From: Arthrobacter citreus
GTDB taxonomy: Bacteria > Actinomycetota > Actinomycetes > Actinomycetales > Micrococcaceae
Assembly (NCBI RefSeq): GCF_038405225.1
Contig: NZ_CP151657.1
Span: forward strand, 3,720,001-3,784,000
Length of the DNA: 64,000 nucleotides
Direction: 5' to 3'
The notes below the pieces were generated by a model. The model ran no database searches. It was not told where the DNA came from and worked only from the letters and a program-made list of their open reading frames with translations. Made by a program: the position numbers and the translations under genes. This document shows positions 55,151 through 58,167 of the stretch, piece by piece. Within the stretch, counting starts at the first letter, position 1. Every line of letters begins with the position of its first letter.

Positions 55151-58018
55151 CTAGTGCTGCTGCCGACGGGAGCGCCCGCTGATCAGCATGACCAGGGGAA
55201 CCATCAGCAGGAGCAGCGGAATCAGTAGTGCCAGGACCTTGGGAGAGGTGACAATCTCGCCGGGCGTCATGGCTGTGGTGCTGGCCCGCATGGTGTCGGC
55301 GCCCGCGGAGATTTCCCCGTTGCCGCCGTCGAGGGTCTCGGTGCCTTCGGCCAGCTTCTTATTGCCGTCGGCCAGTTCAGCCGCACCCTCCTTCAGATCG
55401 CTTGTCCCGGTGGTGAGCGTCTTGCCGCCGTCGTCGAGCTTTACGACGCCCTCGGCAAGGCTGCCACTGCCGGTGACCAACTTGCTGGTGCCGTCCGCCA
55501 GAGTGGTGGCGCCGGTCGCCAGCTGGTCATTTCCGTCAGCCAGCGTTGCTGCTCCGGCTTCCAGAGTGCCGAGGCCCGTGGAAAGAGTTTGGGCGCCGGT
55601 AGCCAGTTTTTCTGCACCGGTCACCAGGTCCGGAGTCTTGGCAGCCAGCTCTGAGGCGCCCGCATTTAGCTTGCCGGCGCCTTCCGCGATGGCGGTATTA
55701 CCCGCAGCCAAGGTTCCCGCACCGGCACGCAGCGTTCCCAGACCGGTGGAGAGCTCTCCGGCTCCCGCCGAGAGGGACACGGCACCGTTGTTGAGCGTTC
55801 CCGCGCCGGTTGCCAGCTGTCCGGCACCAACCTCCAGTGCCTTGGTGCCCGTGGCCAGTTCAGCGGCTCCGGCGTTGAGCTGTCCGGCACCTTCGGCGAT
55901 GGCCCCGTTGCCCTTGGCCAGATCCCCGGCGCCGGCACGCAGCGCCGTCAGGCCGGTTGACAGGTTTGAGGCGCCGGCGGAGAGATCCCCGGCTCCGGTG
56001 TTGAGCTGGCTTGCACCAGCGGCGATCTGATTGGCACCGGCCGTCAATGCCGGAGTTCCTGCGGCCAGAGCTGTGGCACCGGTGTTCAGTTCATCAGCAC
56101 CGGCGGCGAGCAGTTCATTGCCGGCGGCCAGATCGCTGGAGCCGGCTTCCAAAGCACCGGTTCCGGTGGCCAGTTCGCCAATGCCCTTCTCCAGGCTGCC
56201 CGTTCCCTCCAGAACCTGCTGGGCTCCGCCCTGGAGGAGCAGTGCGCCGTCGGCAAGCGCTGCGGCACCCTTGGCTACTCCTGCCGCACCGTTACGCAGA
56301 CCGGGTTCTTCAGCAGTTCCCTGGCCATCAAAACCGGCCTTGATCGTTTGAACTCCAACGTTGAGTGCTTCGGCTCCGGCGGCAACCTGCTGGCCGCCGT
56401 CCTGCACCGCGGCAAGCCCCAGGACTCCTGGGCCAACGGCTTCTGCACCGGCACGAACCCGCTCCAGTCCGTCCTTAAGCTGGGTGTTGTAGGCGTTGCT
56501 GAACTTGGTTCCCCCCTCGGCGACCTTAACCACGCCGTCCTTGGTGGCCTGCGCCTGAGCTGTGACTGCAGCCAGACGTTCAGCAAGCTGAGCCTCGGTC
56601 AGGGAGGGGGCATCCTGCTGCAGTTTCTGCAGTTGGGCCATCATGTTTTCGGCGGCCGCTGATGCGCCCGCCGCGCCGGCTGCCACCTCATCGGCACTGG
56701 TTGTCAGGACGGCTGCACCACCATTGACCAGAGGAATACCAGCGACGAGAGATGCTGCACCCGTTTGCAGTGCACTTCCGTTGGGTATCAAGAAATTGAT
56801 GCCGTTGGAGAGGTTCCGTGCACCAGTGGCGAGTTCAGCTGAGCCGACGGCCGCTTTATCCACGCCATCGCCGAGCTCCTTGGCACCTGCATTGACGCGG
56901 TTGGCGCCGGCCACGAGGTCCGTGGTGCCCTGGACTGCAGCTCCGGTTCCCTCATGAAGGGCGGCGGCGCCGTCGCCAAGGTCTCCGGCACCCTTGGCCA
57001 GCTTGGAGACGCCGGCATTTACGCCGGCGGCACCTACGGCTACCTGTGCGGCACCCTCCTTGGCAGAGACCGCGCCGGTCTTCAGCTCGCCGGTTCCTGC
57101 GGCAATCTGCTGGGCACCGGCGTCAGCATTCTTGGCACCTGCTGCCAGCTCCGTGCTTCCGGTATTGAGCGCATCCGCACCCGCAGCAAGCGTGCCTGCC
57201 CCGGTGGAAATCTGCTCGGCGCCGTTTTTGGCATCCCCTGCTCCGGCCTCCAGTTTGCCGGCACCGGCTTTTGCATCATTGGCACCGGATCGCAGCACTC
57301 CGGCACCCGCGGCGAGCTGTCCGGCACCGGCGTTGGCGGCCTTCGAACCGTCCCGCAGCTTGAGGCCGCCGTTGTTCAGCTCCTTCGCTCCGCCGGCAAT
57401 CTGATCTGCGCCGTTCCGAAGGGCCACGCCGCCGTCGTCAAGCTGTCCCGCACCGGCGTTCAGCGTCTTGGCGCCTTCAGCGGCGTTGAGGGCTCCCGTA
57501 TTCAAGTCTCCGGAACCGACAGCAAGCAGGCTGGCACCGTCAGAGGCCCGCACAGCTCCGTCGCGGAGCTGGATTCCGCCGCTTGCAAGCTGACCGGCAC
57601 CGGCGTTGGCCGTCCCCGCGCCGGTGGCAAGTTTGAGGGCACCCTCGGAGGCAGATACGGCGCCGGTCTGCAGTTTCAGGGCACCTTCGTCCAGGGAAAC
57701 TGCACCGGCCTTCAGGGAAGTCGCTCCGGTCTTGGCGGAAGCGATGCCCTTGGCCAGGGTGTTGGCCCCGGTGTCCACCTTTTCGCTGCCGGCGGCAACC
57801 TTGTCCGCACCATCGCGGGCCTTGGCTGCGCCGTCCTTCAGGTCACCGGCACCGGTGGACGCCTTGGCGGCACCGTCGCTGAGCTGGGTGGCTCCGGCCG
57901 CAACACGGCTGGTGAACAGGACGAAGAAGGCGAGAAGGAGTATCAGGAATAAAGCTAATAGAGCTGTCAGGAGTGTATGCGGCCTGGAACTGGCCCGCCC
58001 GGACGGAGAACTCGTCAT
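55151..58018 (-). CDS. Giant xxxLxxG heptad-repeat protein anchored at both ends
   Basis: 955 residues. One membrane helix at about 16-36, 52 uninterrupted heptads at 42-405 (consensus G-A-x-x-L-x-x), an irregular insert at 406-576 including a Gln/Leu-rich coiled-coil-like part (MMAQLQKLQQDAPSL), 48 more heptads at 577-912, then a second helix at about 928-946 and a basic end. The repeat is that of the N-terminal part of YhgE/Pip proteins, but the multi-helix ABC-2-like domain of YhgE is missing. Topology predicts a wall-zone rod with both ends in the membrane. Start at MTSSPSG behind AAAGGA; 11 extra upstream residues are possible. Function unknown. Confidence 0.85.
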   Translation of the reverse strand: MTSSPSGRASSRPHTLLTALLALFLILLLAFFVLFTSRVAAGATQLSDGAAKASTGAGDLKDGAAKARDGADKVAAGSEKVDTGANTLAKGIASAKTGATSLKAGAVSLDEGALKLQTGAVSASEGALKLATGAGTANAGAGQLASGGIQLRDGAVRASDGASLLAVGSGDLNTGALNAAEGAKTLNAGAGQLDDGGVALRNGADQIAGGAKELNNGGLKLRDGSKAANAGAGQLAAGAGVLRSGANDAKAGAGKLEAGAGDAKNGAEQISTGAGTLAAGADALNTGSTELAAGAKNADAGAQQIAAGTGELKTGAVSAKEGAAQVAVGAAGVNAGVSKLAKGAGDLGDGAAALHEGTGAAVQGTTDLVAGANRVNAGAKELGDGVDKAAVGSAELATGARNLSNGINFLIPNGSALQTGAASLVAGIPLVNGGAAVLTTSADEVAAGAAGASAAAENMMAQLQKLQQDAPSLTEAQLAERLAAVTAQAQATKDGVVKVAEGGTKFSNAYNTQLKDGLERVRAGAEAVGPGVLGLAAVQDGGQQVAAGAEALNVGVQTIKAGFDGQGTAEEPGLRNGAAGVAKGAAALADGALLLQGGAQQVLEGTGSLEKGIGELATGTGALEAGSSDLAAGNELLAAGADELNTGATALAAGTPALTAGANQIAAGASQLNTGAGDLSAGASNLSTGLTALRAGAGDLAKGNGAIAEGAGQLNAGAAELATGTKALEVGAGQLATGAGTLNNGAVSLSAGAGELSTGLGTLRAGAGTLAAGNTAIAEGAGKLNAGASELAAKTPDLVTGAEKLATGAQTLSTGLGTLEAGAATLADGNDQLATGATTLADGTSKLVTGSGSLAEGVVKLDDGGKTLTTGTSDLKEGAAELADGNKKLAEGTETLDGGNGEISAGADTMRASTTAMTPGEIVTSPKVLALLIPLLLLMVPLVMLISGRSRRQQH

Positions 58019-58167
58019 TGAAATTCCTTTTGTGGTCATATCCGGTCCCATGACCGGGTGGGCGCGAAGCGGCGCCGAAGGCTTCCGCTGTCAGTGCTGC
58101 CGGACCGAAAGCGCCTCTACTCTGATGACGAATTCCCCCGACAAAGTGTGATGTCTGTTACATCTAA

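Follow-up and report, generated by a model that had tools for sequence, protein, structure and literature searches.

A two-membrane-helix heptad-repeat protein of Arthrobacter with matched arm lengths and a variable head: a probable hairpin display stalk

INTRODUCTION

Rods composed of xxxLxxG heptads are present in phage receptors and in MMPL-type proteins. YjaE, Pip and YueB, described as phage receptors of lactococci and Bacillus, belong to the YhgE/Pip family. YjaE, a relative of Pip, is reported to possess an ectodomain with TIGR03057 heptads (PMC4155822) and has been predicted to form a 360 Å (36 nm) rod, in which the monomers fold back on themselves and the tip is exposed (PMC12474359). 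At 36 nm, YjaE is held to reach the cell surface, the walls of Gram-positive bacteria being quoted in the same report at 30–100 nm (PMC12474359), and YueB is said to span the wall (PMC9863714). PIP_EF of Enterococcus faecalis is described as having conserved ends and a central variable region of ~160 residues, which sets phage tropism (PMC4999554). The TM1–TM2 ectodomain of EsaA, a type VIIb secretion protein reported to form ~20 nm dimers, is also thought to span the wall (PMC13059805).

The protein described here is encoded within a window of 64,000 nucleotides (the whole stretch of DNA that was analysed) from the chromosome of the soil bacterium Arthrobacter citreus. In common with YjaE, Pip and YueB, it possesses a long ectodomain, composed of TIGR03057 heptads as in YjaE. 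Its probable hairpin would make a rod of nearly twice the length predicted for YjaE. Unlike YjaE and YueB, for which an arrangement of one plus five membrane helices is described (PMC12474359, PMC4155822, PMC9863714), it has one helix at either end and no pip_yhgE domain. The fold-back rod is already a published prediction for a TIGR03057 protein, namely YjaE (PMC12474359, PMC4155822), and the hairpin itself is not new. New, as far as searched, are a two-helix family with N-terminal matches in 15 of 32 genera, the lockstep of the two arm lengths, a rule that places the tip at the midpoint and a variable head at a fixed locus.

RESULTS AND DISCUSSION

Architecture of the protein

The features of the gene are collected in Table 1, in which the arm ends were set by a hydropathy window and could move by a few residues. 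The 955-residue frame opens with an ATG at 58018, which is preceded by AAAGGAATTTCA. As a similar purine-rich stretch stands at equal spacing before the start in all 10 of the listed orthologues that begin with MTSS, an alternative start at 58051, giving 966 residues, appears less likely. Basic residues ahead of the first helix would place the N-terminus in the cytoplasm and, similarly, the RSRR that follows the last helix would place the C-terminus there.

Table 1. Positions in the window of the rod gene and its parts
Feature	Position	Strand	Basis
Rod gene, 955 residues: xxxLxxG heptads, two membrane helices, probable hairpin	55151..58018	-	Reading frame, TIGR03057, same-locus orthologues
AAAGGA, likely ribosome binding site for the 955-residue start	58025..58030	-	Similar stretch at equal spacing in 10/10 listed MTSS-start orthologues
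N-terminal membrane helix, residues 16–34	57917..57973	-	Hydropathy
N arm, 52 gap-free heptads, residues 42–405	56804..57895	-	Count; helical in model
Head, residues 406–576, degenerate heptads	56291..56803	-	Lower identity to the nearest relative than in the arms
Predicted hairpin turn DAPSLT, residues 469–474	56597..56614	-	Helix break in model; mid-protein position
C arm, 48 heptads, residues 577–912	55283..56290	-	Heptad count and model
C-arm tandem duplication, lag of 10 heptads, residues 654–807	55598..56059	-	Best five-heptad blocks 63–77% identical
KTPDL landmark, residues 794–798	55625..55639	-	16 heptads ahead of the last G heptad
C-terminal membrane helix, residues 928–946, then RSRR	55181..55237	-	Hydropathy

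An earlier note on this DNA had counted 52 and 48 gap-free heptads, flanked by one membrane helix on each side, and both the recount (residues 42–405 and 577–912) and the hydropathy profile agree with it. All 52 consecutive 7-mers of the N arm begin with G, as do 47 of the 48 in the C arm, the exception being K794. The consensus heptad is G-A-x-x-L-x-x, with Leu at the fifth position in 30 of 52 heptads of the N arm and 41 of 48 of the C arm. The figure of exactly 100 heptads holds under the gap-free count and shifts with the counting rule, the first register extending to residue 454 with two misses and five further heptads lying at 534–568, inside the stretch that the note had called a non-repeat insert.

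Searched with the NCBIfam profiles (in the 966-residue frame), the protein matches TIGR03057 far beyond chance, with 210.4 bits against a cut-off of 18.6, an E-value of 3e-64 and 40 matching stretches; of three NCBIfam matches, only that to TIGR03057 exceeds its cut-off. The single Pfam match, to the ice-binding beta-roll LbR_Ice_bind (PF21300), falls below the gathering cut-off (17.6 versus 30 bits). The N-terminal pip_yhgE domain (TIGR03061) gave no NCBIfam match at E-values up to 10; the same model does pick up two genes elsewhere in the genome, of which one scores over and the other under its cut-off. Neither NCBIfam nor Pfam finds the multi-helix, ABC-2-like C-terminal domain of YhgE/Pip proteins, a single helix following the rod, and the MMPL domain PF03176 is absent in Pfam at E-values up to 1. 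The relation to the YhgE/Pip ectodomain (xxxLxxG) proposed in the note, with the multi-helix domain missing, is borne out by the profile search that it had suggested. The protein is not a fragment of YhgE/Pip: the two-helix form occupies one syntenic position in all 17 loci examined from the genus, and the YhgE/Pip-type genes lie elsewhere.

Growth by block duplication, also proposed in the note, is upheld for the C arm, where the G of LSTG is found at 689, 759 and 815 (10, then 8 heptads on) and the blocks at a lag of 10 heptads are those of Table 1. In the N arm the signal is faint, with a lag-10 self-identity of 28% against a median of 23%. The C-arm duplication is considered old.

Coordinated lengths of the two arms

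The comparison of heptad numbers suggested in the earlier note was made across homologues, and the N and C counts covary. In three anchor groups, which cover 49 of 59 proteins, the lengths of the N and C arms are correlated with r = 0.999 (10 proteins), 1.000 (15) and 0.914 (24), and in each group none of 20000 permutations reached the observed r; an earlier measure of the arms had given no correlation outside the genus (r 0.12). Edge-disjoint pairs were taken within an anchor group from a quick tree of the membrane-near ends (the trees being built from the rod gene itself), provided that their N arms differed by 5 residues or more. Of 17 such pairs, 16 lengthen or shorten both arms together, and in 13 the two changes agree to within 4 residues. 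Looser matches by this measure are L172/L170 (+27/+58), L037/L163 (+28/+37) and L165/L145 (+151/+162).

A comparison of 14 hand-chosen pairs gives the size of the indels between anchors, which the repeats leave intact whilst blurring the exact site. Four close pairs carry equal changes in the N and C arms, located at similar distances from the turn: L146/L147 (-42/-42, 89% identity), L027/L029 (-35/-35, 87%), L169/L171 (-7/-7, 84%) and L156/L161 (-21/-21, 74%). More distant pairs match exactly or nearly, including L146/L149 (-42/-42), L037/L163 (+28/+27) and L037/L151 (-42/-44); in L037/L149 the indels, inside the rod, are -98/-105. No change inside the rod is found in L033/L035, L148/L152 or L148/L160, and L030/window and L033/L034 show a difference of 4–5 residues confined to one side. 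The clear departure from matched arms is L153/L155, with -84 residues (12 heptads) in the N arm and 0 in the C arm. These comparisons suggest that the arms mostly lengthen and shorten together, by whole heptads. L150, L153 and L155 (genus g32) are two-helix rods in which three-residue spacers (KTK, KSK, PAT etc.) separate the heptad runs of the C arm.

Landmarks within the arms follow the same arithmetic. An N-arm landmark, K/E-M-x-P-L, and a C-arm landmark, A-P-x-L, occur together in 14 of 17 proteins scanned from the genus, and in these 14 the heptads on the membrane side number 19/21, 20/22, 25/27, 28/30 or 32/34 (N/C), the C arm always having two more. For L135 the second listed landmark match is the correct one (34.0) and the first is wrong; the N landmark is absent from L132 and L133, and the C landmark of L142, missed by the pattern, shows 21 on another scan. 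L128 and L135, the two proteins with 32 heptads, fall apart on the tree of the genus. In the wider family, 13 proteins contain AAxKL; counted from the start of the N arm, it stands at 16 heptads in 12 of them and at 14 in L159. Of the 13, 11 also possess K(T/A)PxL in the C arm, which stands 15.0 (seven proteins), 15.86 (three) or 13.0 heptads (L159) ahead of the last G heptad.

A predicted turn at the middle

A chain anchored by both ends in one membrane has to run outwards and back, with its turn at the centre. The AlphaFold model of the whole protein is all-helical, one helix ending at residue 472 and the next beginning at 475, and a fragment comprising residues 370–610 breaks at the same place (H2-103, H106-156), that is, at 473–474. 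The confidence of these models is low to moderate, with a mean pLDDT of 59.6 and pTM of 0.29 for the whole protein and 63.8 and 0.59 for the fragment. A further helix break in the whole-protein model, at 792–802, coincides with the KTPDL landmark. No solved structure matched the rod sequence (phmmer, E ≤ 0.01).

Outside the genus, eleven proteins (L037, L146–L149, L151, L152, L154, L160, L163 and L175, of which L148 and L175 look identical) have ectodomains that consist mostly of heptads, with irregular heptads scattered among them and the widest break, of 21–29 residues, at the middle. Several share a central motif, xNPAVPVGxL...K(I/L)xxL. A tip-motif matrix, built from nine seed stretches chosen near the middle and scored leave-one-out, reaches a score of at least 8 in 24 of 59 proteins, at a mean position of 0.485 ± 0.022 of the ectodomain; 23 of these 24 best matches fall within 0.45–0.55, and one seed, L168, was not recovered. 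Of the non-seed matches, some of which nearly duplicate one another or a seed, 15 of 16 are central. The 35 proteins below the threshold comprise 27 of the same genus, which has other tips, together with L064, L150, L151, L159, L160, L168, L173 and L174.

Divergence of the head

Among the type II orthologues, head identity lies below that of both stalk parts in all 15 pairs compared (of 120 possible). In six pairs whose N stalks share 93% identity or more, the stalk parts are 89–97% and the heads 34–58% identical. In the comparison with L030, the nearest relative of the window, the head is 67% and the arms 90% identical, the membrane-near half of both arms being 96% and the head-near half 84–85% identical. 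The synonymous distance of this pair is also unequal, with a head dS of 1.64 versus 0.40–0.50 in the arms, as would be expected if one of the two heads stems from another lineage. In L146/L147, the 40-residue tip has a dS of 1.94 versus 0.46–0.82. Such a raised head or tip dS was found in two of the four pairs tested, L027/L028 and L033/L035 being without it, and heads seem to have been exchanged between species. Part of the genus carries heads of another type. The head dN/dS is low in all four pairs (0.05–0.24; 0.16 in window/L030) and gives no sign of positive selection on the head in these pairs, whilst the arms of window/L030, with dN/dS of 0.13–0.17, are under purifying selection.

The variable middle is similar in size to that described for PIP_EF (PMC4999554), comprising 171 residues in the window and 138–168, landmarks included, in 16 type II orthologues. 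PIP_EF differs in its six predicted membrane spans, and its phage dependence is proven.

Genomic context and distribution

The genome consists of one contig of 3.88 Mb, in which the rod gene, at 3.775 Mb, is solitary. Its neighbours, metabolic or transport genes, are a RibD_C-like gene and a thioesterase to one side and genes for an MFS transporter and for an alcohol dehydrogenase to the other. No phage, ligand or partner gene hints at its function. The earlier note had considered that a YhgE C-terminal domain might be encoded in an adjacent fragment, or that a frameshift might have shortened the frame. None of the adjacent genes is such a fragment, and a frameshift is contradicted by the recurrence of a hydrophobic helix near each end in 59 of 62 collected sequences. 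The other three (L031, L144 and L158) lack one or both helices through an incomplete or broken frame or through trimming. In L031 (G013), the orthologous frame is without the N-terminal membrane helix, which points to a broken gene or to an error in the sequence.

The thioesterase and MFS genes flank the rod gene in 17 of 19 related loci examined, all 17 from the same genus; L037 and L064, from outside the genus, lack these flanks. Within the genus, 28 of 29 genomes contain a match to the C-terminal 51 residues. A match to the N-terminal 59 residues occurs in 51 of 197 genomes, representing 15 of 32 genera of the family, and one to the head in 14 of 59 genomes. Two YhgE/Pip-type genes are found on the same chromosome, L040 (G000:C1, ~2.143 Mb) and L041 (G000:C1, ~1.625 Mb), both more than 1.6 Mb from the rod gene; one has heptads of its own and a score over the cut-off, and the other scores below it. 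The strain also appears to possess a type VII secretion ATPase, judged from an EccC gene scoring 539 bits, over the cut-off (G000:C1:2199898-2201583). The rod gene is not inside a type VII secretion locus, EccC lying at 2.20 Mb, ~1.58 Mb away, and its neighbours being unrelated. EsaA differs from the rod protein in this respect, as it is described as part of a secretion system, and in its six membrane helices (PMC13059805).

A hairpin display stalk and its alternatives

The protein is probably a display stalk, that is, a hairpin rod which crosses the wall and holds a variable tip outside for a role in recognition. The central turn, the matched arm lengths, the paired indels and the all-helical models with a turn at 473–474 together make a hairpin with both ends in a single membrane a strong inference, and arm matching and the central turn strongly suggest a fold-back ectodomain with an exposed tip. 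Both membrane helices would sit in one cell membrane, the N arm leaving it as a long helix that reverses near residue 473 and the C arm returning beside it to form an antiparallel coiled coil, the pair being held by the Leu/Gly/Ala heptads. A small Gly or Ala at each seventh place resembles the close-packed antiparallel helices of the ‘Alacoil’. The insert of the earlier note is probably the head that this hairpin carries at its distal end, rather than a central spacer.

At a rise of 0.15 nm per residue, arm lengths of 438 and 454 residues compute to 65.7 and 68.1 nm. A rod of ~65 nm, set against the quoted wall of 30–100 nm and the surface-reaching 36 nm of YjaE, would cross the wall and present the head outside, so that the head should come to lie at or beyond the surface, provided that the wall has the usual thickness. 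The stalk is constrained and the head is the part that varies. The likeliest use would be surface recognition, by or of something outside, with phages as one possible partner, as for Pip and YueB; the variability of the tip favours a role for it in recognition, whether similar to that of a phage receptor or of another kind. An exposed, variable head borne on a constrained stalk would also follow the plan of PIP_EF. The note had raised wall tethering and phage reception as conceivable roles, and both are conjectural.

The same hairpin could instead serve as a structural strut or as a ruler of wall thickness, for which length would matter and the head would be loosely constrained. A conserved, length-matched stalk would suit this, as would a C-terminal end present in 28 of 29 genomes and a single locus in 17 loci of the genus. 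We nevertheless hold this reading somewhat doubtful, since lengths vary about two-fold within the genus (502 to 959 residues), which is odd for a wall ruler, and the raised head or tip dS in two of four pairs suggests exchange over drift. It is also conceivable that the rod acts in trans with a membrane transporter, of the ABC-2/YhgE or MMPL type, supplying the extracellular stalk that such proteins carry in cis. The xxxLxxG repeat does occur within YhgE/Pip- and MMPL-type proteins and the genome has two YhgE/Pip-type genes; these, however, are distant and one already has its own heptads, and no ABC-2/YhgE or MMPL transporter is found among the ten neighbouring genes scanned, making such a partnership unlikely.

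The remaining alternatives fare worse. The earlier note had envisaged a rod held at both ends, and the anchor at each end stands. Two separate pin sites are improbable, as the arms are matched and the turn is central: a parallel or single-stranded rod pinned at two places, e.g. bridging two membranes or wall positions, would have a membrane helix at either end and yet predicts neither observation, and it is given very little credence. That the protein is the relic of a decaying YhgE/Pip transporter, which has lost its C-terminal helices, would account for the shared repeat and the missing domain; with the two-helix form in 59 of 62 sequences and purifying selection on the arms of window/L030, this reading is largely refuted and highly improbable. 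A beta-roll of the ice-binding kind, with half-turns of 7 residues, would have the sub-threshold LbR_Ice_bind match (E 0.004) in its favour; the match spans 52 residues, the repeats are Ala/Leu-rich and the models are all helix, and a beta-roll is scarcely credible.

Implications and related proteins

If the display stalk is taken further, these proteins may tentatively be viewed as minimal, length-locked, two-helix hairpins in which paired changes of whole heptads let a lineage reset the projection of the tip (~30 to 67 nm) and head cassettes are swapped through recombination under attack by phages or other biotic agents, making up a stand-alone, tunable display device that could be derived from, or ancestral to, the stalk of Pip and YueB. 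Should this be true, the pairing rule ought to extend to xxxLxxG rods generally, including those of phage receptors and MMPL exporters. Even where no structure is at hand, matched gain and loss of whole heptads is evolutionary evidence that the arms pair antiparallel, and counting heptads on either side of the turn is a simple way to predict the exposed tip of such proteins. The two-helix form parts the stalk from the transporter-like domain, such that stalk function could be tested alone, and the variable head indicates where phage or other binding partners may be sought.

A first hint of the midpoint rule in YhgE/Pip-type proteins comes from cysteine pairs, which lie within the heptad region in 11 of 122 proteins scanned. 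In P0066, P0069 and P0105 the motif is CxxSGAAPxxC, possibly a disulfide loop, at 0.491–0.493 of the heptad region; the other eight have other motifs, at 0.46–0.665. The heptad repeat proteins P0038, P0044 and P0065 of Kribbella resemble the rod protein in having hydrophobic segments close to both ends, of which the first may be a signal peptide, and heptads around a non-repeat middle, but differ in some 250 extra residues before the heptads and are 34–35% identical. The top 36 matches (P0001–P0036), two of which bear a Lactobacillus name, are proteins of 1449–1490 residues that carry the MMPL domain PF03176; in P0001, the one inspected, the transporter contains two long runs of 35 and 33 heptads.
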